A stretch of DNA of 64,000 bases from assembly GCA_029204225.1 (NCBI GenBank), contig CM055111.1:47915594-47979593 (forward strand), written 5' to 3'. The notes beneath the pieces are model-generated. The model was not told where the DNA came from and did not search any database. It saw only the letters and a program-made list of their open reading frames with translations. The position numbers and the translations under genes are program-made. This DNA comes from Diphasiastrum complanatum (taxonomy: Eukaryota; Streptophyta; Lycopodiopsida; Lycopodiales; Lycopodiaceae). Below, piece by piece: positions 40,502 through 57,705 of this stretch. The stretch's first letter is position 1. Each line of letters begins with the position of its first letter.

Positions 40502-40920
40502 CATCTTTTCTCTCGTATATATTCTACATTTTATTTTTATTTTTTGTGTTATTTTTTATTCATTCTATTACTTTTTATTTTATTTCCTTGTTTGTAATTC
40601 TCGTTTTGCATGCCTGTTGTTCACCTCATTCCTTGTTTATACTTCATACCATTTCTTATGTACTATCTATGCATTTTCTTTTTTCTGTACATACTCATGG
40701 GTCATGGATGTTCTAGATCAACAAATGATAGGCTACACCATAGGAAGTGATTCTCACACTTTAGCCACCTCATCTTCGTCTGACTGGTATCTCAGGCATA
40801 CAAACATTCCTGGAGATACACCTTCTTCGTAAGAGCTTCTACTCTGAGCCACAGTCATGTTTTCCCTTGAAGTTCTTCACTTGCAGAAAATAGATCAATT
40901 CCTTCATATTGGAATTTTGT
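40502..40920. other. pyrimidine-rich 3' flank
   Basis: T-rich sequence follows the integrase stop. It has one 127-codon hydrophobic open frame (40449-40832) that I judge to be a composition artefact. Confidence 0.35.
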
Positions 40921-41120
40921 CAAATCTCAACCGACTGGATCCGTTCAAATCTCAACCGACGGGATTCGTTCAAATCTCAACGGATGGGATCTGCTCAAAT
41001 CTCAACCGATGGGATCCGTTCAAATCTCAACCGACGGGATCTGTTCAAATCTCAACCGACGAGATTCGCTCAAATCTCAACCGACGGGATCCGCCCGAAT
41101 CTCAACTGATGGATTTTCAT
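40921..41120 (+). repeat. 25-bp minisatellite, eight units
   Basis: Eight head-to-tail units of 25 bp occur, of the form CAAATCTCAACCGACGGGAT plus five variable bases. They start at 40921, 40946, 40971 and so on to 41096. A degenerate ninth follows. Because 25 is not a multiple of 3, all plus-strand frames are open and read the same 25-residue pattern. Confidence 0.95.
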
Positions 41121-41809
41121 CAAATCTTGACACTTCTCATTCAAAATCCAACGAACAGACACGTCCCATCGCGCCCGAACCTAGCCGACGACGACCATAA
41201 ATGCCATCACTTCAACGCCATTCACACTTCAGCAAAGTGCGAACTCTGGAGCTCTCTGATGACAATCTGTTGGTGAGTTTCTGGCTCTCCTACACGATCT
41301 TGGCGCTCTCTCGTCCGGTGCATCAGTCATTGCTTCCACACCATCTCCACCCAATATCAGCCATCCTAGTGTGTTTCCCATTGAGAGTGCCATCACAAAC
41401 CATCTCCAAACCTTATATTGCCAGTGGAGAACAAAGCATTTGAAACATTTCGCACGCTGAGGGGTAGTGTCATGCAAGCCTTCAACACACTTCCGTTACA
41501 CTATTGAGTATCACCTTTTAATCTTACACACTTTTCTTTCATCCTGTCCAAACACCCGTTTTCACCGAAAGCTACTTTCTTTACATCTCCCAATATCTTC
41601 ATCCCTTTCGCTTAGTCACAAACATATATCAACATCTTCTTTTTCGGAACTTCTACTTTCCATTGTTCACACCATACTTCATTTTCCACACATCCTCCAT
41701 ACCCTTCTATCCACAACGCCTCCACTTTCACACACCTTCCTTCCCAACCTCAGTTCCTCACAGTCCATTCCTTTCCCGCCATCACTCCCTTCAGCCAGCC
41801 TTTCCATTA
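41121..41809. other. no gene seen between the minisatellites
   Basis: C- and T-rich sequence with overlapping short open frames. Nothing was recognised. Confidence 0.3.
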
Positions 41810-42010
41810 CATCTCAACCGACACATTTCCATTACATCTCAGCCGACGCCTTTCTATTACATCTCAGCTGACGCCCTCCCCTCCCATCTCAGCCGACGCC
41901 CTCCGCTCCCATCTGAACCGACGCCCTCCGCTCCCATCTCAGCCAACACCCTCCGATCAAATCTCAACCAACGCCTGTTAACCCTGTCTGAAATCTCAAC
42001 TGACACCATT
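41810..42010 (+). repeat. second 25-bp minisatellite, seven to eight units
   Basis: Units of 25 bp such as CATCTCAGCCGACGCCCTCC start at 41810, 41835, 41860, 41885, 41910, 41935 and 41960. The half CATCTCAACCGAC is shared with the array 700 bp upstream, while the other half differs. The period is the same. Confidence 0.92.
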
Positions 42011-43828: not shown

Positions 43829-44009
43829 CGAGGCGAGCAGGACTCGCAAAAAGCTCTCAACAGGGCTGGAATGTAGCGGCCAATTGAGAGACTTCCAATT
43901 TTGAAGAATAAGTTTTGCAGATAATAAGCTCCTGGTTTTACGGAAGCGAATGAAGATCCACGCTTTTCCAAGTGCCAAGCGAAAAGACATTACTGGTGTT
44001 GTAGTGGGT

Positions 44010-44044
44010 CATTAGAGGAGTTCTCAATATCAAAAAGACCCTTT
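44010..44044 (+). repeat. left 35-bp inverted repeat
   Basis: This matches the complement of 51260-51294 at 34 of 35 positions. Sequence just inside differs between the two ends. Confidence 0.85.
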
Positions 44045-44477
44045 GTATAGATATTTTTATTTTTTATTTTTTTCAGTTTCGACCGTCACCAGGTCCAATC
44101 AAAATGCACAGATTTGAAATCTACGTAACGTAGTTCAAATTGACTAAAAAATAAAAATGCAATATAGCGAAATTTAAAATTTTGTCCGGGCAACATGTAC
44201 GTATCCCATTGGTTTCTTTTTCCTGCTCGACACATGCTAATATGCCCGACGTCAATATCTCAAGTTAAATTTACTTTACTATGCTAGTTAGTATAATGAA
44301 ATTTTCTAACTATACTAGTTACGGTTATAGAAATAAAGTATGTACAGTTACATAAAATATGGTATACGCAGTAATTGTGACTATGTTGGCATTCACATTA
44401 GATTAAATGTGATACGAAAAATTAAAACCAAGTAACATATCAGAGAGATTTTTGGCGCCCAAGCTTTGAAAATAGCA
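44045..44477. other. left subterminal region
   Basis: AT-rich and non-coding, with small palindromic words (TACGTAACGTA near 44125; CTAGTTAGTATA and ACTATACTAGTTA near 44285-44325). GTGACTAT here (about 44378) is shared with the right subterminal region (about 51136). Confidence 0.4.
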
Positions 44478-45852
44478 ATGGTGAGGAGACCCAGATCTAC
44501 AATCGATTATGTGATTCTTTACAATGAGAAAGATGAAGCTGATAACTAGAAGCCAACAAAATATACGAAGAACTCATGGGTATTGCTGCATCCATCATCA
44601 AAAGGCAATTTTCGACAAAAGAAAAGAGCAAAAATGACTTACAAATCTTATTGGAAAGCAAAAATTTTGGGATTTAAGACTACCCTGGGAGGTTAATCGA
44701 TATCCGAAGTCTTAGTGCAACATGTATATATGCATTCAGAAATCAAAGTACATGATATCAATCCTCATGATCATAAAAAATGTAATTGTAAGTATATCAA
44801 AACATATGCACTCTACAGCAATCATAGGTGATTTCCTTTATTGATGCTCTTCAGATTATGATTTAAATGCTTCAACATTGTTTTTTTTTTTTTCGGATTT
44901 ATATCCATTATGCATAAGTGAATGGGAGCCCGCACAATCACTTGCAGGAATATTAGACATGATTCACTCTGATGTTGGAAAGCTACAATACAGAGGAAGA
45001 AGTCCAAAGGAACTTGCAGATTGTGGTATCTATTTTTATGAATCTTTATATACGCCACAAACAGATGGAGGTTTTGGCAAGCTCGAAGCAATTCCATTGC
45101 CTAGTTTTCAAAGTGATGAGTGGCCTACTCCTGACAACATTGTTTCTGAATCCTTGAGATGCAAGCTACTCATTGATATTAAAAATGCTATGAAGATAAG
45201 CACAAGCTCAAAAATTGTTCACCTAAGTTGGTTTATCTCATTGCATACATTTGTTGATTTTTTCTCGAGTGCTAGTGTTTGTAGGACACCAACTTTATTT
45301 GTTTGCAAGGATTTATCAGATGAGACTTTGTCAGATCTCATGGATCAAGGCTGGGATAGTAAAACAAATAATGGCATAGAATTCAGGATTAAAAAGTACT
45401 CAATGATCTTTCAATATTATATCGAAAAGCAAATGCTCAGTCTCACATTTAGCTACCAGAGATACAAGAAAATTGAAGGTACATGGCTACCACTGGATTA
45501 AGACTTTGAACTAAATGGTCACACAAACTGAATGGAGATAAGCATTATCTACAATGAGGAATATTTGACTATGGTTGAGGTGGAAGAGCACTAAAAGCTT
45601 GATTTTATCAGAACAGAGCTGATGCTATTACAAACCAATCTACCAACATATTTCAGATTTATCATCAACGGAAGACTCGTAAGTACTTTATGTTTATTGC
45701 CATTTCAAAATAGAACAAAATAATAGAAAATGTCATCATTTACAATTACACATTCACTAATATTTGCCATGTCATAGATGCGAAAAAGACAGGAGCTGAT
45801 AACGTGCTGCAAAGATCTACCTACAACAATCACCATTGTGGGAGAACAATAG
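44478..45852 (+). pseudogene. gene A of the candidate element, unknown protein
   Basis: Three exons can be proposed: 44478-44691, 44948-45678 and 45778-45852. Junction phases agree (phase 1, then phase 0) and the last donor is a strong CTC|GTAAGTA. The basic N-terminus (MVRRPRSTIDYVILYNEKDE, RQKKRAK) leads to a folded-looking middle (GILDMIHSDVGKLQYRGRSP, DDFFSSASVCRT-like region, FRIKKYSMIFQYYIEKQ). The end is YFRFIINGRL then MRKRQELITCC. In-frame stops lie at 44547, 45499, 45529 and 45592, with no frameshift. Total length would be about 340 residues. I recognise no domain. Its placement next to the left inverted repeat and its orientation toward gene B are the only clues; a DNA-binding or transposition role is only a guess. 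Confidence 0.5.
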
Positions 45853-46047
45853 TTTCAAATAAACTTTGGTAAAAATCTGTGTATACACCCTTTCATTCAA
45901 TAAATGAAAGCCCAAGTTGGGCATCTGTACATGTATTTTGTGCTCCCAAATTCATAAACTGGAGCAACATTTGATATATCAATGTATATTTTTCTATGAA
46001 GTCTATACATGTATTTTGGTTCTATGCTATCTATATTGTTTCTGATT
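45853..46047. other. A/B intergenic region
   Basis: About 195 bases lie between the convergent 3' ends of genes A and B. They should hold both polyadenylation regions; AATAAA-like words (TCAATAAATGAAAG near 45897) are present. Confidence 0.4.
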
Positions 46048-47762
46048 TTAATTTAGTACAACTACATCATCTTTTGTACCATCATCAATAACGGGAGGCT
46101 GAAGCCTTGCCCGAGCCAGTATACTCAGGATAATTTCTTGTCTAAATCTGTACACCTGGCTTGATGTGTACTCTGGAAGTGTAAACTGCAAAATAGAACA
46201 TTTATGCATTAGTAATGGCCAATAACATCACCAGAATAGAAAACTAATCATGATTCCAAAATAAGAATAAACAGAATTTATTACCTTAGAAATATCAACA
46301 TCTTGTTGAAGGATGAACCACTCAAAAAACAGCTTGGCATTGTACAATGTGTACCACCCACAGTTGAATGAATCATTTTGCTAGGGTGACTGCAAAATAA
46401 TTCAGCACACAAGAAATCAATTATGAAACAGAATGAATTAGATTGAAAATATTTCATTGGAATACTGATTTCAAAATGCTATTAAGAAAGAAGAGTTTAC
46501 CTCCAAGCTGACGATCTGCCAGTCCACGGAATGGGGAACGTCTGTAGGAATATATTTACTTAGATATGGAATGAATATATCTACATCCTTATGCGTATTT
46601 CTCGCCGAATTCATCTTGACACAAGAACATTTAGTAATATTATTTACAGATCTCTTAATAGAGATCAGGTTTAAACTCCAGTGGTCACTGCAAAATAAGA
46701 TTGAAAGTACTTTAGCGGCAATTCTGAGAACTATTTAAATTGAAAATGTCAATGTTAATGCATAAAACAAGAAGAAGCACTTAATATATCTTATTTGGTA
46801 TGATAAGGAATGACCAGATACTTTGTTGCTGGTGTGAATCCACTTGTCAGACACTGTGACAATGTGTCATTATTCTCCTTGAAGGCCTGGAGCCGAAAGT
46901 TACTCAGCACCAGCAACTCGTTTGATGAATCTCTTGCAATGTCAAATTGCAAGAGTGTCAGTCCGGAATCTATCACAGGATCAATGATAGAAGCCCATCT
47001 GTCTTTGAGATCCAGACAATCTAGAACTCTAAAATCAATACTAAAATCAAGTTCTTCTAGTCTAAAACAAAAAGGAGTACCAATTGTATCTATAGCATCC
47101 GATATGTCTTTCTCAAATTTAAGATAATCATGCGAATCTATATATGTATAGAAACTGGGAGGAGGAGGAGGAGGTGGAAGTGTAGTATCTACAGCAATAT
47201 TAGGAGTATCCAAAACAGAGGTAGCTATATTTACAGCATTATCTACAATGGATTCTGGGATAGGCTTCACTTTCTTAGGAGCATGCTTGGGGGCTGTCTG
47301 CTTCCTAGGACGCTTTGTAGGAAGATGAGTCCTATCTACAGGAGTTGGTCTAGGAGCAGCAGGCTGAGATACATGTAACCTATAGTACCTATCCCTCATT
47401 CTCATCAGAAGCTGAAAATCCTTGGGCATTATGGTAACCCTCTTGGTATGGATGGCAAGCAAAAAAGAATCCTAAAAAAAAAGGCTAATATAATCTTTAG
47501 CAGCCTCCTGAAGGCACTGAAGAGCACTCGGTGTGAATCTAACGTGCTATCCGAGATCATTTCTTGTTATGTTTCGGATAGCACAGTAGAATGGAGCTCT
47601 TGGGATCAACAGAGCTGTTGACCTCTGATACTTGCGTATCTCAGAGAGCCACCTGCTGCGGTTGCGCGTTCTAGGTCTAGCAGGGGGTGTGATGGCAACC
47701 GTAGGAGATGAGGATCAGCCAGGAGAGAAGAAGTCTCTCCTTGTCTGCTTTCTCCTATCCAT
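46048..47762 (-). pseudogene. gene B: CENH3-like histone fold fused to Ulp1/C48 protease
   Basis: Four exons: 47762-46795, 46687-46501, 46389-46285 and 46185-46048, about 465 codons. Codons 1-37 form a basic tail. Codons 38-128 are a histone H3 fold: LSEIRKYQRSTALLIPRAPF (alpha N to alpha 1), RFTPSALQCLQEAAKDY (alpha 2) and LAIHTKRVTIMPKDFQLL (alpha 3). The LLIP, DSFL and KDF residues and one extra residue in loop 1 are CENH3-like rather than canonical H3. A Pro/Lys linker with an NLS-like KRPRK (150-154) and seven prolines (196-202) follows. The Ulp1 core is YLVIPYHTNDHWSL (His 325), KMNSAR (Asn 349 where Asp is usual) and QNDSFNCGW (Gln 389, Cys 395). Nonsense codons sit at 16 (47717), 72 (47549), 97 (47474) and 388. 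The intron 1 donor reads ATAAGAT; introns 2 and 3 are intact GT-AG. A 223-codon uninterrupted stretch (47462-46791) spans from histone alpha 3 into the protease, so the fusion is real, not an assembly of neighbours. Ulp1 enzymes process or remove SUMO-like modifiers. Confidence 0.85.
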
Positions 47763-48499
47763 GGGCGTGAACTGTGTGATAGCGGACTTGTGCGTGAAGG
47801 TTAGGATGACAAGGAAGGGATGATAAAGGACTCGCAGAGGACCACTATGTACGGACAGAATGTACGGTATATCGGACCTATGCGAGCCGAATATCAGAGA
47901 GAACGATTAGATTTGAGGAAAGACGCACAAGTGCGATATGGGGTGACACGTAGGAAGATGTATCAGACCTGTGCGCATGGAAGGTAGTAGGAGGAATTTT
48001 GATCGTGAAGGACGCGCACAAATGCGATATGCGAAGCGAGAAAAAAGTGAAAAAAATTCATCGAAATTTGTGATTTTATATCGGGGTTTGCACGTGCGAA
48101 AGAACGTCCTGTCACACGTGTGGGAGTTGTACGGACAAATGCGAGAGCGACACGTGTCACTCTGTCACACTACACGTGTGGGATTTGTACGATCGAATGT
48201 GAGAGCGACACGTGTTTATAAGCACTCGAATGAACACGCGACACGTGTCTAGGTGTCATTTCACACATGTGCAGGTGTCATCTCACACGTGCCTGCGCCT
48301 GTTGTCGAATTGAAAGTAGACATGTGTCATAAGTCCGTTGACCATGTGCGAAAATTTAATATAAATGGCACGAAAACCGAATATTTTTTTACCTTTTGCG
48401 TTCTCGAAATTCGCGACATATCGCTTTTGTGCATGCTCATTTCATATCTACATGTTTTCAGGACTGTATAACCAAATTCTGACGTATTTTATAAACATT
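47763..48499. promoter_or_regulatory. divergent B/C promoter region
   Basis: This 740-bp region separates the starts of gene B (minus) and gene C (plus). It contains the G-box cluster described separately and a 45-bp direct repeat (TGTGGGAGTTGTACGGACAA and TGTGGGATTTGTACGATCGA, each ending GAGAGCGACACGTGT). A bidirectional promoter is inferred from the arrangement. Confidence 0.5.
48091..48291. promoter_or_regulatory. cluster of seven CACGTG G-boxes
   Basis: CACGTG occurs at 48091, 48115, 48151, 48173, 48209, 48242 and 48286, with near matches CACATGTG and ACATGTGTC between and after. Most sit in ACACGTGT palindromes. G-boxes are bound by plant bZIP and bHLH factors, including ABA- and light-responsive ones. 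Chance expectation for a 6-base word is about one per 4 kb. Confidence 0.85.
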
Positions 48500-49800
48500 A
48501 TGTCAGATTCAGGGATATACTTAGAAGCCTATTTCCTCCATAGGTCAACTCCAGTACATGCATTATACTGATCTTGTTCATTTCTTCCCAGCTTTTAGAC
48601 ATAGACTGGATAGAATGTTCACCAAATTGTTTGATCTTTTCAAAAGTAGTTCTATGTGTTCGTATTGCAACAAGAAATGTCAATTGGTTGAATATCAGAG
48701 TGGTTTCGTACTTTTTCTTTTAGTTCAGATCCCAGATGATGATGAGTTTCTTGTTGCTGACTCTCCTTTTGCACCCTCCTCTGTTCATCAGCCATTAGGG
48801 ATATCAGTCACTTTCTTATCGACACTCCTGATAAAGAAAGTGACTTCATTGATTTAAATACTGATGTTCTCCGGGATTCTTTCACTGGCCAAAATACATC
48901 TGATGATGAATCCAAATCTATGGAGGATTCGAAATGTCTTTTCAATTTGCTTGTATATTATATTAATGACAATGTATATTTTACTACTGCTGATTTATGT
49001 AAATTATTTGACTATCGTGAGGACGAGGTTCTATGTTTATTATCCGGCACAATTTCCGAATTCTCCGACTTTGTAGATTTTGAGACAGATGACCTTGTTG
49101 TTGGTATTGATTTTGATGATGAGGAGGGTCTTATGACCGGTGAAGAATGCCTGAATAAGCCTTTATCAAATATAGCTGAGGATGGGTGAGGCAGACCATC
49201 CGATGAAGAATTCACGGCATTTCAATCCCAGATGGGCTTCCTTCGTCCATCATTAATGCATTTCACTGATGATTCCACTTCAATACATGGTCATTATATT
49301 GATCATCCTGATCTGGTTGCTGCTGATGATGAAGAATGTGTAAGTGTTTAATCTTCCTTGCATTTGAATGTTTTCAATCACTGAATGTATTTTCGCTAAC
49401 ATATTTCCTATTGCAAAATGCTCTCATAATAGATGATTTTTCTGTGAGACGAGGTGGTTTCAGACAACACGCATCCTTGTTCCAGAGGGACAGTGGACTG
49501 GGCCACTATCTTCGGCATTTCTTGAAGAGTGAGATCTGTATTGCTCATTCCAAGCTGAGCCCAGTCGGGGAGAGTCTTATAATGGCAGTTAAAGCTTTAT
49601 CATTTTATTTAGGAGGACATAAATTTGTTAAGACAAATAAGATCATTTTTGTCAAAAGATCTTATGTTTTGAACATTTTAGGCTTTACTGATGGGAATGT
49701 TCCTTTAAGGAGATCCCATTATTCATTGTATTCCACTTATATTGAGCTTAGTGGAAATAAGGATAATGCACATCTATTAGATGCATACGCTAGCAGATAA
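48500..49800 (+). pseudogene. gene C of the candidate element, unknown protein
   Basis: Coding-like text begins at or before 48558 (MHYTDLVHFFPAFRHRLDRM) with CSYCNKKC, a possible CxxC pair. A frame change near 48797 leads into RDISHFLIDTPDKESDFIDL, then an acidic stretch (FDDEEGLMTGEECLNKP). There is a TGA at 49187 where the frame otherwise continues to DHPDLVAADDEEC at 49339. An intron of about 90 bases follows (donor GTAAGTG). The final exon (about 49433-49800) reads GGFRQHASLFQRDSGLGHYL and VKALSFYLGGHKFVKTNKII and ends at TAA. The 5' end is uncertain and the intron phase does not fit perfectly. No domain was recognised. The last 24 bases overlap the 3' end of gene D in antisense. Confidence 0.45.
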
Positions 49801-50769
49801 TTTCTTTAGTTTAAATATTGTTGCATATGCTTCCCTACTAATACCTACAAAATCACAAGCACCCTGAACTATAGTCTTATCTAAAATATTTTGAATGTCC
49901 ACCATCAAAGACTCTGCTATTTTAAACTTTACATTTGAAATCCTATTGTTCATCATGATACGCTCAATGGATTTGCAAGTCAATATTGTGCCCAATGACA
50001 TTCCTAGTGAAGCATTGTCTTTAATATTCCGAGGAGCTACTAATGCAGATCTGCAAAAAAAAATAGATAGTTAGCAGAATATCACCATAGCTGAAATTAA
50101 AATCCAAATGTCATTGAAAAACTTACAAAATTTAGAATATGCTTACTTGAATGCACAGATCCTTCTATTTCGATAACCTCCTTTTGAAAGCGTTTGAATA
50201 TCCTTGCAACTTTGTCGCTTTCGCTTCTTACTTTCAGCCTTCTTCTTTACTAAATCCACATCCTTCAGTAATTGCAAGTTTTCAATACGAATAGACTGTA
50301 AGACTGATTGCATTTGCTCTATTTTTGATTTGATATTGATTGCTATCTTCTATAATGATTCATGATTTTTTTTAAGTTGTTCATTTTCTTCTAACGTCTT
50401 TTGGAGATGACAATCTCTATTCTGACAATAAGAGGATATCCGAATTAACTCACCTTCTAAAAAGTGAACTTTATTCATATAAAGTTGTTTTCCATGGTTT
50501 TGCAATCTTTCACAATATCCTAGTAATCCACTATGCCCATTGCATATCCATGTAACTAAATGAGTTATTGAAGAGAATGTGGGATGTGTCAAAGTGCTTG
50601 GATCTTGTGGATATAATGTTCCATCTGTCCACAAATCCACGTTTTTCTTTCCTTCTGCCCTGTAACGAGAACGATCTTCAGTAGATATTTGAACTCCTTT
50701 GCCTCCTCTTCTCTGCAAAGGTGCCAAATCAACAGGGATATCCACATGTAGATGATATAATGTCATCAT
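49777..50769 (-). pseudogene. gene D of the candidate element: coiled-coil protein with NLS
   Basis: Two exons, 50769-50147 and 50050-49777, are joined by an intact 96-bp intron (AA|GTAAGC ... TTTTTTTTTGCAG) with matching phase. About 298 codons start MMTLYHLHVDIPVDLAPLQR. A globular part (WTDGTLYPQDPSTLTHPTFS, THLVTWICNG) leads into a coiled coil (LQKTLEENEQLKKNHESL; IEQMQSVLQSIRIENLQLL) and a bipartite nuclear-localisation pattern KKKAESKKRKR. The C-terminal exon (LGTILTCKSIERIMMNNRIS) looks helical. The only lesion is a TAG at 50352-50350. No family was recognised. Head-to-head spacing with the right inverted repeat is about 490 bp. Confidence 0.55.
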
Positions 50770-51259
50770 AAAAAAAAAATAGAGTAATCACTTGCATCAA
50801 AGTACTATGACCAGATTCTATGAAGCAAAACAAAATACTCATCTTTGATTATATTATATACTATGTACGATCAATCCAATCTCCATGCTTGTATGCTTGA
50901 TTCAAATTTGGAAATGCCGCTCATTTTTTCATTCCAATAGGTAGTTGGCGCTCATATTTCCATTCTTGTGGAAGGAATGCATATGTAAACATTTTGCAAT
51001 TTTTTCTGATTCAAATTTGGGGATGGCGGTCATATTCTAGATCCAGTGAAAATATTGTCCTTTTCGTAACCAATGGAGGGAATATTTTTGAATTTAGTCA
51101 AGTTATACTGCGAACTATTAACAGTTCTTAACTGTGACTATAGACACTGTGGTTAGATCATTGAGAGTTGGGGAGGCCTTGGGAGTGGTGTGGGCAAGCA
51201 AACAAACAATATTGTTTTATTTATTTTGATATTTTTGTATATCCTACATGGCATTTCTT
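50770..51259. other. right subterminal region and 5' flank of gene D
   Basis: Non-coding and AT-rich. It contains AACAGTTCTTAACTGTGACTAT near 51120-51140, which includes a small inverted repeat and the GTGACTAT word shared with the left end. Confidence 0.4.
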
Positions 51260-51294
51260 AAAGGGTCTTTTTGATATTAAGAACTCCTCTAATG
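51260..51294 (-). repeat. right 35-bp inverted repeat
   Basis: This is the complement of 44010-44044 with one mismatch. Confidence 0.85.
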
Positions 51295-52402: not shown

Positions 52403-53115
52403 GACAAAATCACAAAAAATCGAATATTTCAATTTCTACATGCAATTGCTTAAAAGTTGATATGCAATCTTGTAGCTACCACTTAGGCTTTTCTAATTCA
52501 AAAAAAAATTGACCAAATCCAATATGTGAAGTGTATAATTGGAATTGTAACCTAATTTGAGTTTTGATCTACAAAAGATCCAATCTACATATGCAAGAAA
52601 CTCAATCTTTGGGTAGAAGTTAATCATTAATGCTCTAGCATTGATATCTCCTCCAAATTCTTGATAAATGTGATTGCTTACTTCATAACCTAAAACACAA
52701 GAGCTCTGATACTATGTGAATAATTTCAGACCATTAAGATCCAAAATCATCCCTTTGATCTTTGGTTAGAAGACAACAAATCACCAACCTTGCCAATGTA
52801 GAAAAACCAACATCTATTCTATGAATGAGATGCAAACTCTAATAGATCTTGATCAAACATAAATCAAAACATGAAATGAAGTTTCTGTCCATACAAAAAT
52901 AGTAAGCTACTATTTTTCACACATGTGGATCCGATTATAACATTTAATGAGCATTCTACACACAAAATTGCAAGATATCACAAATATAGTGCACCAATGG
53001 CTAGATGAACCCAAGAGAACTCATGTATAAGCATGAAATGAGATGAGAGAGAGAGAGAATGCTTCTCCTCACACATGTGTATAGCTATATATAGTAGATC
53101 CATGACACATTCTAC
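52403..53115 (-). mobile_element. Copia family-B 5' fragment, second copy
   Basis: Minus-strand LTR starts near 53110 and ends TTCACA at 52715. The primer site TAGTATCAGAGC (52714-52703) and about 300 bases of leader follow. It matches 21785-20690 and the right-hand element, and lacks gag. A purine microsatellite GAGAGAGAGAGAGAA lies in the LTR near 53045. Confidence 0.8.
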
Positions 53116-56769: not shown

Positions 56770-56968
56770 AATGTAGGAGGTCGCATTTGGATGATTCAAA
56801 TTTGAATATCTTGTTCATTGAATCTAGTCCACATTAATAGTAGGGTTTTTGTTATGGAGGGAAACCAAGATCATTAATGAGACATGGACCTGTTATAAAT
56901 AGATGTAAACTCATGGGAAGAGAAGCATTCTCTCTCTCATCTCATTTCATATTTATACATGAGTTCTC

Positions 56969-57705
56969 TGTTGAATTTCACACATGTGGACTGTCCACTA
57001 CATGTACTTGTGATCTCCTAAGGTTTGTAGATGCACCAAGATCAAGACTAGATTGAGATTCAAGATCAATTTTGAATCCTATGGCAAAAACACACTACTA
57101 CATGCATTCAATCACTTCCAACTCTCACTCACACGTGTGGGAAGTACTCAAAAAATAATCTAAGTAAAAACAAGCTGCTCTCCTCGAGTAGAGAGAGAAA
57201 ATGCATCATGAGCTCTCGGGTAGAGAGAGAAAGCTAGAAATCCAATAACTCACAAAATCCATGAAATCACCAAATCAATTGACTTCAAAATGAGGAGTAC
57301 AATGATACTAGTAGGTCCACGAGCTACCACTATGCTTAACTATGATTGGACCATATTTTGTCACCTCTTGATCCTATTGGATCATTGATCTATGCACCTC
57401 TTAATTCTATTGGACTATATTCAAGCACACCTCAATTTCCTATTGGACCTCACAAGGTTCCACCTCTAAATCCTATTGGACCTCTTGGAATTCATCAAAC
57501 AAAAATTTTACACTTGTCTACACTCTAATTAGCAAGTGTTTAGCCTCTTACTCTATTTTGGCTCAATAGTGGCATTACAAGTGGAAATGCATGATTTGCC
57601 ATCTATGCCAAATTTATTCCTATCAACATCCTACATCTAGATGCTTGATGTAAAAAACATAAGACCCCTATATCTAATATAGATAATCTTTTTCAATTCT
57701 TCACA
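56969..57705 (-). repeat. 3' LTR of element 2
   Basis: On the plus strand it runs from TGTTGAATTTCACA to CAATTCTTCACA. The adjoining CTCCTCCTAAAAAATT is the complement of the polypurine tract AGGAGGAG. Confidence 0.94.

Follow-up and report, generated by a model that had tools for sequence, protein, structure and literature searches.

We identified a gene on the minus strand of the analysed stretch of DNA (hereafter the window, 64,000 nucleotides) that joins a histone H3 fold in frame to a Ulp1/C48-type protease domain, and this gene is part of a DNA transposon that occurs in high copy number and ends in terminal inverted repeats (TIRs). We regard its identity as a transposon-encoded H3-Ulp1 fusion as close to certain. 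In kind the element is a DNA transposon with an accessory chromatin gene, and the accessory protein is strongly unusual. Ulp1 capture by plant transposons and RAG1-fold transposases are already known; for an H3 gene as part of a transposon, and for its fusion to C48, we found no earlier description. The initial annotation knew of no such architecture, and our search of the open-access literature likewise returned no precedent and nothing relevant on histones encoded by or fused in transposons. The membership in a high-copy DNA transposon and the broken state of the window copy are points absent from that annotation. The features are as follows, with L036/L037 denoting a longer copy of the element elsewhere in the genome and P0010 a relative of its transposase.

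44010-51294, no strand assigned: DNA transposon copy of 7285 bp containing the fusion gene, delimited by piecewise homology to L036/L037 and inverted repeats at its ends
44010-44044, plus strand: left TIR, 35 bp, starting CATTAG, 97% complementary to the right repeat
44896-45684, plus strand: "left" gene, 93.5% identical to L036/L037, with a 32% relative in a second family
46048-46185, minus strand: exon 4 of the fusion gene, C-terminus of the protease domain and stop
46285-46389, minus strand: exon 3, Gln and Cys region (QNDSFNCG), with an in-frame TAG at 46383 in the window copy
46501-46687, minus strand: exon 2, catalytic His region (NDHW), donor GT and acceptor AG
46795-47762, minus strand: exon 1, H3 tail, histone fold, Pro/Lys linker and start of the protease domain, with three in-frame stops
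47388-47654, minus strand: histone H3 fold, residues 37-125 (Pfam Histone 1.3e-24 in the spliced reading; PDB H3 chains 3e-21)
47724-47762, minus strand: H3-like N-terminal tail MDRRKQTRRDFFS, K at position 4 and D at position 9 (numbering after Met)
48445-49806, plus strand: "middle" gene, head to head with the fusion gene, homologous to L036/L037
49807-50757, minus strand: N-terminal remnant of a RAG1-fold transposase gene, alignable with P0010 (23% across 332 columns) and with the L036/L037 transposase
51260-51294, minus strand: right TIR, 35 bp, pairing with the left repeat

Exon 1 is one frame running from an ATG at 47762 to 46795 and encoding the H3-like tail, the H3 fold, the Pro/Lys-rich linker and the first C48 strands; exons 2-4 (46687-46501, 46389-46285 and 46185-46048) continue it in compatible phases. 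The motifs, the frame and these phases confirm the initial reading, in which an H3-type fold runs in frame into a Ulp1-type domain, as does the profile check of the spliced translation that had been proposed with it. In a 465-residue spliced reading with X at stops, Pfam Histone matched residues 27-123 (E=1.3e-24) and Peptidase_C48 matched residues 311-436 (E=4.2e-9; 37 bits versus a cut-off of 20.7). Because both domains exceed the curated Pfam cut-offs, these matches are not due to chance. The best PDB matches of the histone part are H3 chains (E 3e-21), placing it by profile within H3. When the Pfam C48 profile was run against the genome, there were three matches among 150 scored (520 candidates) and none in the window, since exons were matched singly. 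The predicted structure of exon 1 was unusable (mean pLDDT 34), and no plasmid relatives of the long exon-1 stretch were found.

The window copy itself is a decayed member of the family, and a full protein is impossible in its present state. Four in-frame stops interrupt it, TGA at 47717 and TAG at 47549 and 47474 in exon 1 and TAG at 46383 in exon 3 (the last placed from the exon phases), and its first donor is AT instead of GT. The uninterrupted stretch reported initially does exist, spanning 47471-46791 (226 codons plus stop), but of the histone fold it covers just the final portion, with alpha-3, and the gene around it is broken.

Other copies are numerous. A search of the 1.74-Gb assembly with the 226-residue exon-1 stretch gave matches for all 150 scored of 7893 candidates, at 84-100% identity and with the window and its near-identical copy among the 150; copies of the fusion sit on many contigs. 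We aligned 30 copies, comprising the window and the 29 best-scoring further loci, of which 22 reach the ATG and six have an open exon 1. Four (L008, L025, L031 and L032) have no interruption in any of the four exons, and each of their three introns has GT/AG borders. The initial annotation had named the lack of any other copy with both domains as grounds for giving up the fusion; the same genome holds at least three distinct intact ones, a figure that counts L031 and L032 once, since they are nearly identical and could be a single copy that was assembled twice. The protein of L008 has 470 residues, passing from a short H3 tail through the H3 fold and a basic Pro/Lys linker to the C48 domain, and matches Histone at 1e-27 and C48 at 1.1e-10 (42.2 bits versus a cut-off of 20.7). 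A lone chimeric pseudogene or an assembly error is ruled out by the same junction in many copies. Several copies break off inside the histone and run on into unrelated sequence. One broken copy, L005 (C20:47797917-47801594), lies on the same contig at a distance of about 163 kb, is oppositely oriented, is 99.8% identical to the window gene and shares its stops, pointing to a recent local duplication.

The longer copy L036/L037 (8.68 kb) carries four genes: the left gene, the fusion gene, the middle gene and the transposase. Relative to it, the window copy is missing two segments, one of about 250 bp at 48443 and another of 1836 bp at 49806 that includes the transposase catalytic exons, and carries 686 bp (50023-50708) that L036/L037 does not have. 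Homology to another copy, L034/L035, begins at 44008 and ends at 48114, showing that L034/L035 is incomplete. The CATTAG terminus was present in five of the seven left-end stretches fetched (two of the five being duplicates of each other) and in 16/16 right-end stretches, some of which have identical flanks and are duplicates. A 162-bp right-end query matched all 40 scored of 1726 candidates. Neither the left nor the middle gene has a Pfam match above cut-off, and both likely matter to the element since each has a relative of about 32% identity in the second family described below. The neighbourhood holds other repeats. A further inverted pair (53014-53054 and 56929-56969, 41 nt, 95%, about 3.9 kb apart) possibly marks the ends of a different, adjoining transposon, and tandem arrays of a 25-bp unit (TCAAATCTCAACCGACGGGATCCGT and relatives) lie at 40920-41127 and 41791-41975, a few kb from the element.

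A canonical H3 query against the genome gave, among the 150 scored of 6059 candidates, 14 close matches (13 full-length at 96-97% and one partial at 91%), a few partial ones at 77-90%, and many H3-like stretches at about 44-57%. Four of the last group (L081-L084) were read and all four form one family. A copy of this second family (L085+L081+L086, C10:47283106-47297786) has the same gene set as the window family, with relatives of the left gene (33% across 209 residues), of the middle gene (32% across 87, E 2e-7) and of the H3 (41%), and a transposase that is 37-43% identical to that of the window family and 45% identical to P0010. The H3 fold of this copy sits close to the C-terminus of an open frame of 440 residues that is rich in Pro/Gln and starts MSEEMAWTKQTARDPR; the N-terminal part of that frame matched in all 150 scored of 436 candidates. 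Queried with the fusion, this copy yielded no C48 domain.

The transposon histones share fold and tail motif with host H3 but differ from it at position 9 of the tail. After the Met, host H3 reads ARTKQTARK and the window family DRRKQTRRD, so that K4 is kept and K9 is lost. Among 22 copies (near-duplicates included), 21 have K at position 4, and position 9 is occupied by D in 20 and by N in the other two. The second family, whose tail is known from one copy, reads AWTKQTARD. Retention of K4 with loss of K9 thus occurs in both families, whose folds are only 38/85 identical to each other. Against host H3 the fusion further shows a fold identity of 47/85, a short tail and the C-terminal Ulp1 domain. 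In Arabidopsis, non-CG methylation is guided by H3K9 methylation (PMC10398659).

We hypothesize that the fusion is the transposon's own anti-silencing chromatin factor, a role that we infer from these features and to which we give a probability of roughly 0.45. The H3 half would associate with the H4 of the host and either be built into nucleosomes at or close to the element or imitate them; keeping K4 and carrying Asp at position 9, it would not be open to methylation at that site. The C48 half would bind SUMO on, or remove SUMO from, silencing proteins held at the element. Jointly these activities could keep the element expressible, much as the Ulp1-bearing VANC genes of VANDAL transposons go with loss of silencing. 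Ulp1-carrying VANC genes (KIUs) induce hypomethylation of kindred VANDALs, the role of the Ulp1 domain there being unknown according to PMC13317346, and Arabidopsis silencing involves the SUMO-linked MOM1/PIAL2 (PMC6084981).

For this mechanism we count the in-frame fusion, the open copies, the element ends and the copy number, the kept His, Gln and Cys, the tail with K4 kept and K9 lost, the deficit of nonsynonymous changes in the whole gene and the protease part, and the VANC and SUMO-silencing precedents. Counted against it are the absent catalytic Asp, the lack of significant selection on the fold, the undepleted stops and the TAG at codon 97 in 18/30 copies, as well as a review according to which Arabidopsis KI elements show low or undetectable expression and probably do not act on SUMO (PMC6117577). 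The results suggest that this transposon may come equipped with a means of its own to change or evade silencing by chromatin. If the reading is true, a transposon has made a counter-silencing tool out of the main chromatin protein of its host, and the K9 question becomes directly testable with one protein. More tentatively, we propose that a large, hitherto undescribed group of RAG1-fold DNA transposons, in what is probably a land plant, encodes an H3 with K4 kept and Asp at position 9, fused to C48 in one family, and that these elements build or mimic chromatin refractory to H3K9 methylation and strip SUMO, making theirs an arms-race histone.

Among the known systems that come close to this one are VANDAL elements and viral histones. 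The KIU/VANC genes of VANDALs (Mutator-like elements of flowering plants) are likewise plant DNA transposon genes with a Ulp1/C48 domain and a link to escape from silencing (PMC13317346). VANDALs of this kind are non-TIR MULEs, whereas the element here has 35-bp TIRs, a RAG1-fold transposase and a Ulp1 domain fused to H3; its TIRs and transposase fold set it apart from their Mutator-type transposase and lack of TIRs. The word "histone" has no occurrence in the main text of that review (PMC13317346). Viral histones, such as the doublets of Marseilleviridae, are also core histones encoded by a selfish element (PMC9145170), but those doublets are histone-histone fusions in viruses, in contrast to an H3-C48 fusion in a transposon.

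To measure selection we took the introns of these copies as the neutral standard, with one-sided, uncorrected tests in which relatedness is ignored; the near-duplicates L005, L020 and L032 were excluded here and kept in the tail, stop and catalytic-residue counts. Over the whole gene, nonsynonymous changes are fewer than expected both for shared variants (ratio 0.73, p 0.033) and for single ones (0.74, p 0.009). The protease part shows ratios of 0.60 (p 0.042, shared) and 0.71 (p 0.057, single). For the histone fold alone, ratios of 0.86 (p 0.40) for shared and 0.79 (p 0.24) for single variants fall short of significance, nor is there a significant reduction in the tail, linker and pre-protease part. 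Stops are not depleted, at 0.051 (shared) and 0.031 (single) versus 0.037 expected. Codon 97, inside the histone (window 47474), is TAG in 18/30 copies, GAG in ten, AAG in one and TTT in one, and owing to this TAG those 18 copies yield no full protein unless there is readthrough. The interrupted version has spread widely; readthrough or supply in trans is possible.

These figures bear on the reading that capture joined pieces of host H3 and ULP, which the element now carries passively and without a function for itself. It gains from the 26/30 aligned copies that are not fully open, from the codon-97 TAG, from the non-significant selection on the histone part and the undepleted stops, and from the missing catalytic Asp. 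However, open copies persist with all splice sites, nonsynonymous changes are fewer over the whole gene, and the far diverged second family, which has the same gene set, retains an H3 gene in which K9 is likewise replaced by Asp. We consider a mere passenger improbable.

The transposase opens a different possibility for the role of the fusion. Its relatives fold like RAG1/Transib, and all motifs of a D-D-CxxC-HxxxxH-E arrangement occur in P0009 and P0010. Pattern searches over 35 relatives, many of them short, recovered the first Asp in 14, the second in all 35, CxxC in 24, HxxxxH in two and Glu in three. The spacing of the DDE, CxxC and HxxxxH residues is shared with RAG-like (ProtoRAG) and Transib transposases. 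In contrast to that group, the transposase sequence profile matched no solved RAG1 or Transib chain in PDB up to E=10, the TIR starts CATTAG, Pfam recognised no RAG2-like gene (a partner to be expected of RAG-like elements only) in that neither the left nor the middle gene exceeded a cut-off, and there are extra genes including H3-Ulp1. A 5-bp target-site duplication is the rule for the RAG/Transib group (PMC7204232), whereas an exact one was seen in none of our seven end pairs (six independent); one duplicated end pair had a 4-bp match, and no empty insertion site of copy L036/L037 was found. A viral source was also considered and rejected: the transposase profile gave no viral contig encoding a relative (two pattern matches, neither confirmed). 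One annotated fern protein (P0043, Adiantum nelumboides) combines DUF7794 with a piece of the transposase family, a misannotation or an exon capture. This fern relative makes a vascular plant the likely host. Whatever the function of the fusion, high-copy transposon H3 genes and a RAG1-fold transposon with accessory chromatin genes in a probable plant widen knowledge of transposons and of the RAG lineage.

RAG2 binds host H3. By analogy, the H3 half could tether the RAG1-fold transposase or the element to nucleosomes as a counterpart of RAG2, with C48 acting on SUMO-bound transposase and the main role lying in transposition. The RAG1/Transib-like fold of the transposase in relatives, its similar DDE and zinc residue spacing, the retained K4 and the absence of a Pfam-recognised RAG2-like gene all fit such docking. 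Contact between fusion and transposase would have to be assumed, however, and docking alone does not explain the loss of K9. We judge it unlikely relative to the anti-silencing role as stated above.

In the protease half, among covering copies, the catalytic His is kept in 30/30, the Gln in 29/29 and the Cys in 26/29; three copies have Tyr at the Cys position, and the Gln and Cys positions each fall in a gap in one copy. The Asp usual at the catalytic site is missing: the aligned residue in L008 is Lys (against yeast Ulp1, 1euv) or Ile (against 6dg4), and all 30 copies have an Asn at residue 354, near the Asp site. Judged from these residues, protease activity may be lost, and deSUMOylating activity is uncertain because the usual Asp is absent. 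With the protease half as query against 5.8 billion proteins, no relative was found among 1044 candidates (E up to 0.1); the whole fusion returned eight proteins, each of which has a histone domain but no C48 domain in its Pfam annotation.

A catalytically dead C48 that only binds SUMO, recruiting or sequestering SUMO-modified silencing proteins beside an H3-like decoy, would fit a domain that has been kept while its Asp is gone. Yet the nearly complete retention of His, Gln and Cys is not needed by a pure binder, and a Cys-His-Asn triad, as in papain, is possible with the conserved Asn. We find such a SUMO reader distinctly unlikely.

The initial annotation had also drawn the fold towards CENH3, and a CENH3-derived factor targeting centromeres is highly improbable. 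The fusion and the Arabidopsis CENH3 do have LLIP and DS(F/M)L in common, and loop 1 is one residue longer than in H3; the shared LLIP and DSxL are insufficient for CENH3 descent. The window-family fold is identical to host H3 at the 47/85 positions given above and to Arabidopsis and rice CENH3 at 42/86 and 45/86. Identity to CENH3 is thus no higher than to H3, and the tail has KQT as in canonical H3, not the KH of the two CENH3s. The tree that had been suggested, built from 16 rows (ten window-family copies only, L082 and L084 absent), groups CENH3 with H3 apart from both transposon H3 families (99/95), although it is weak, with long branches meeting at that split, unsettled bootstrap and only two CENH3s. 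The spread of the copies over many contigs also speaks against centromere targeting.
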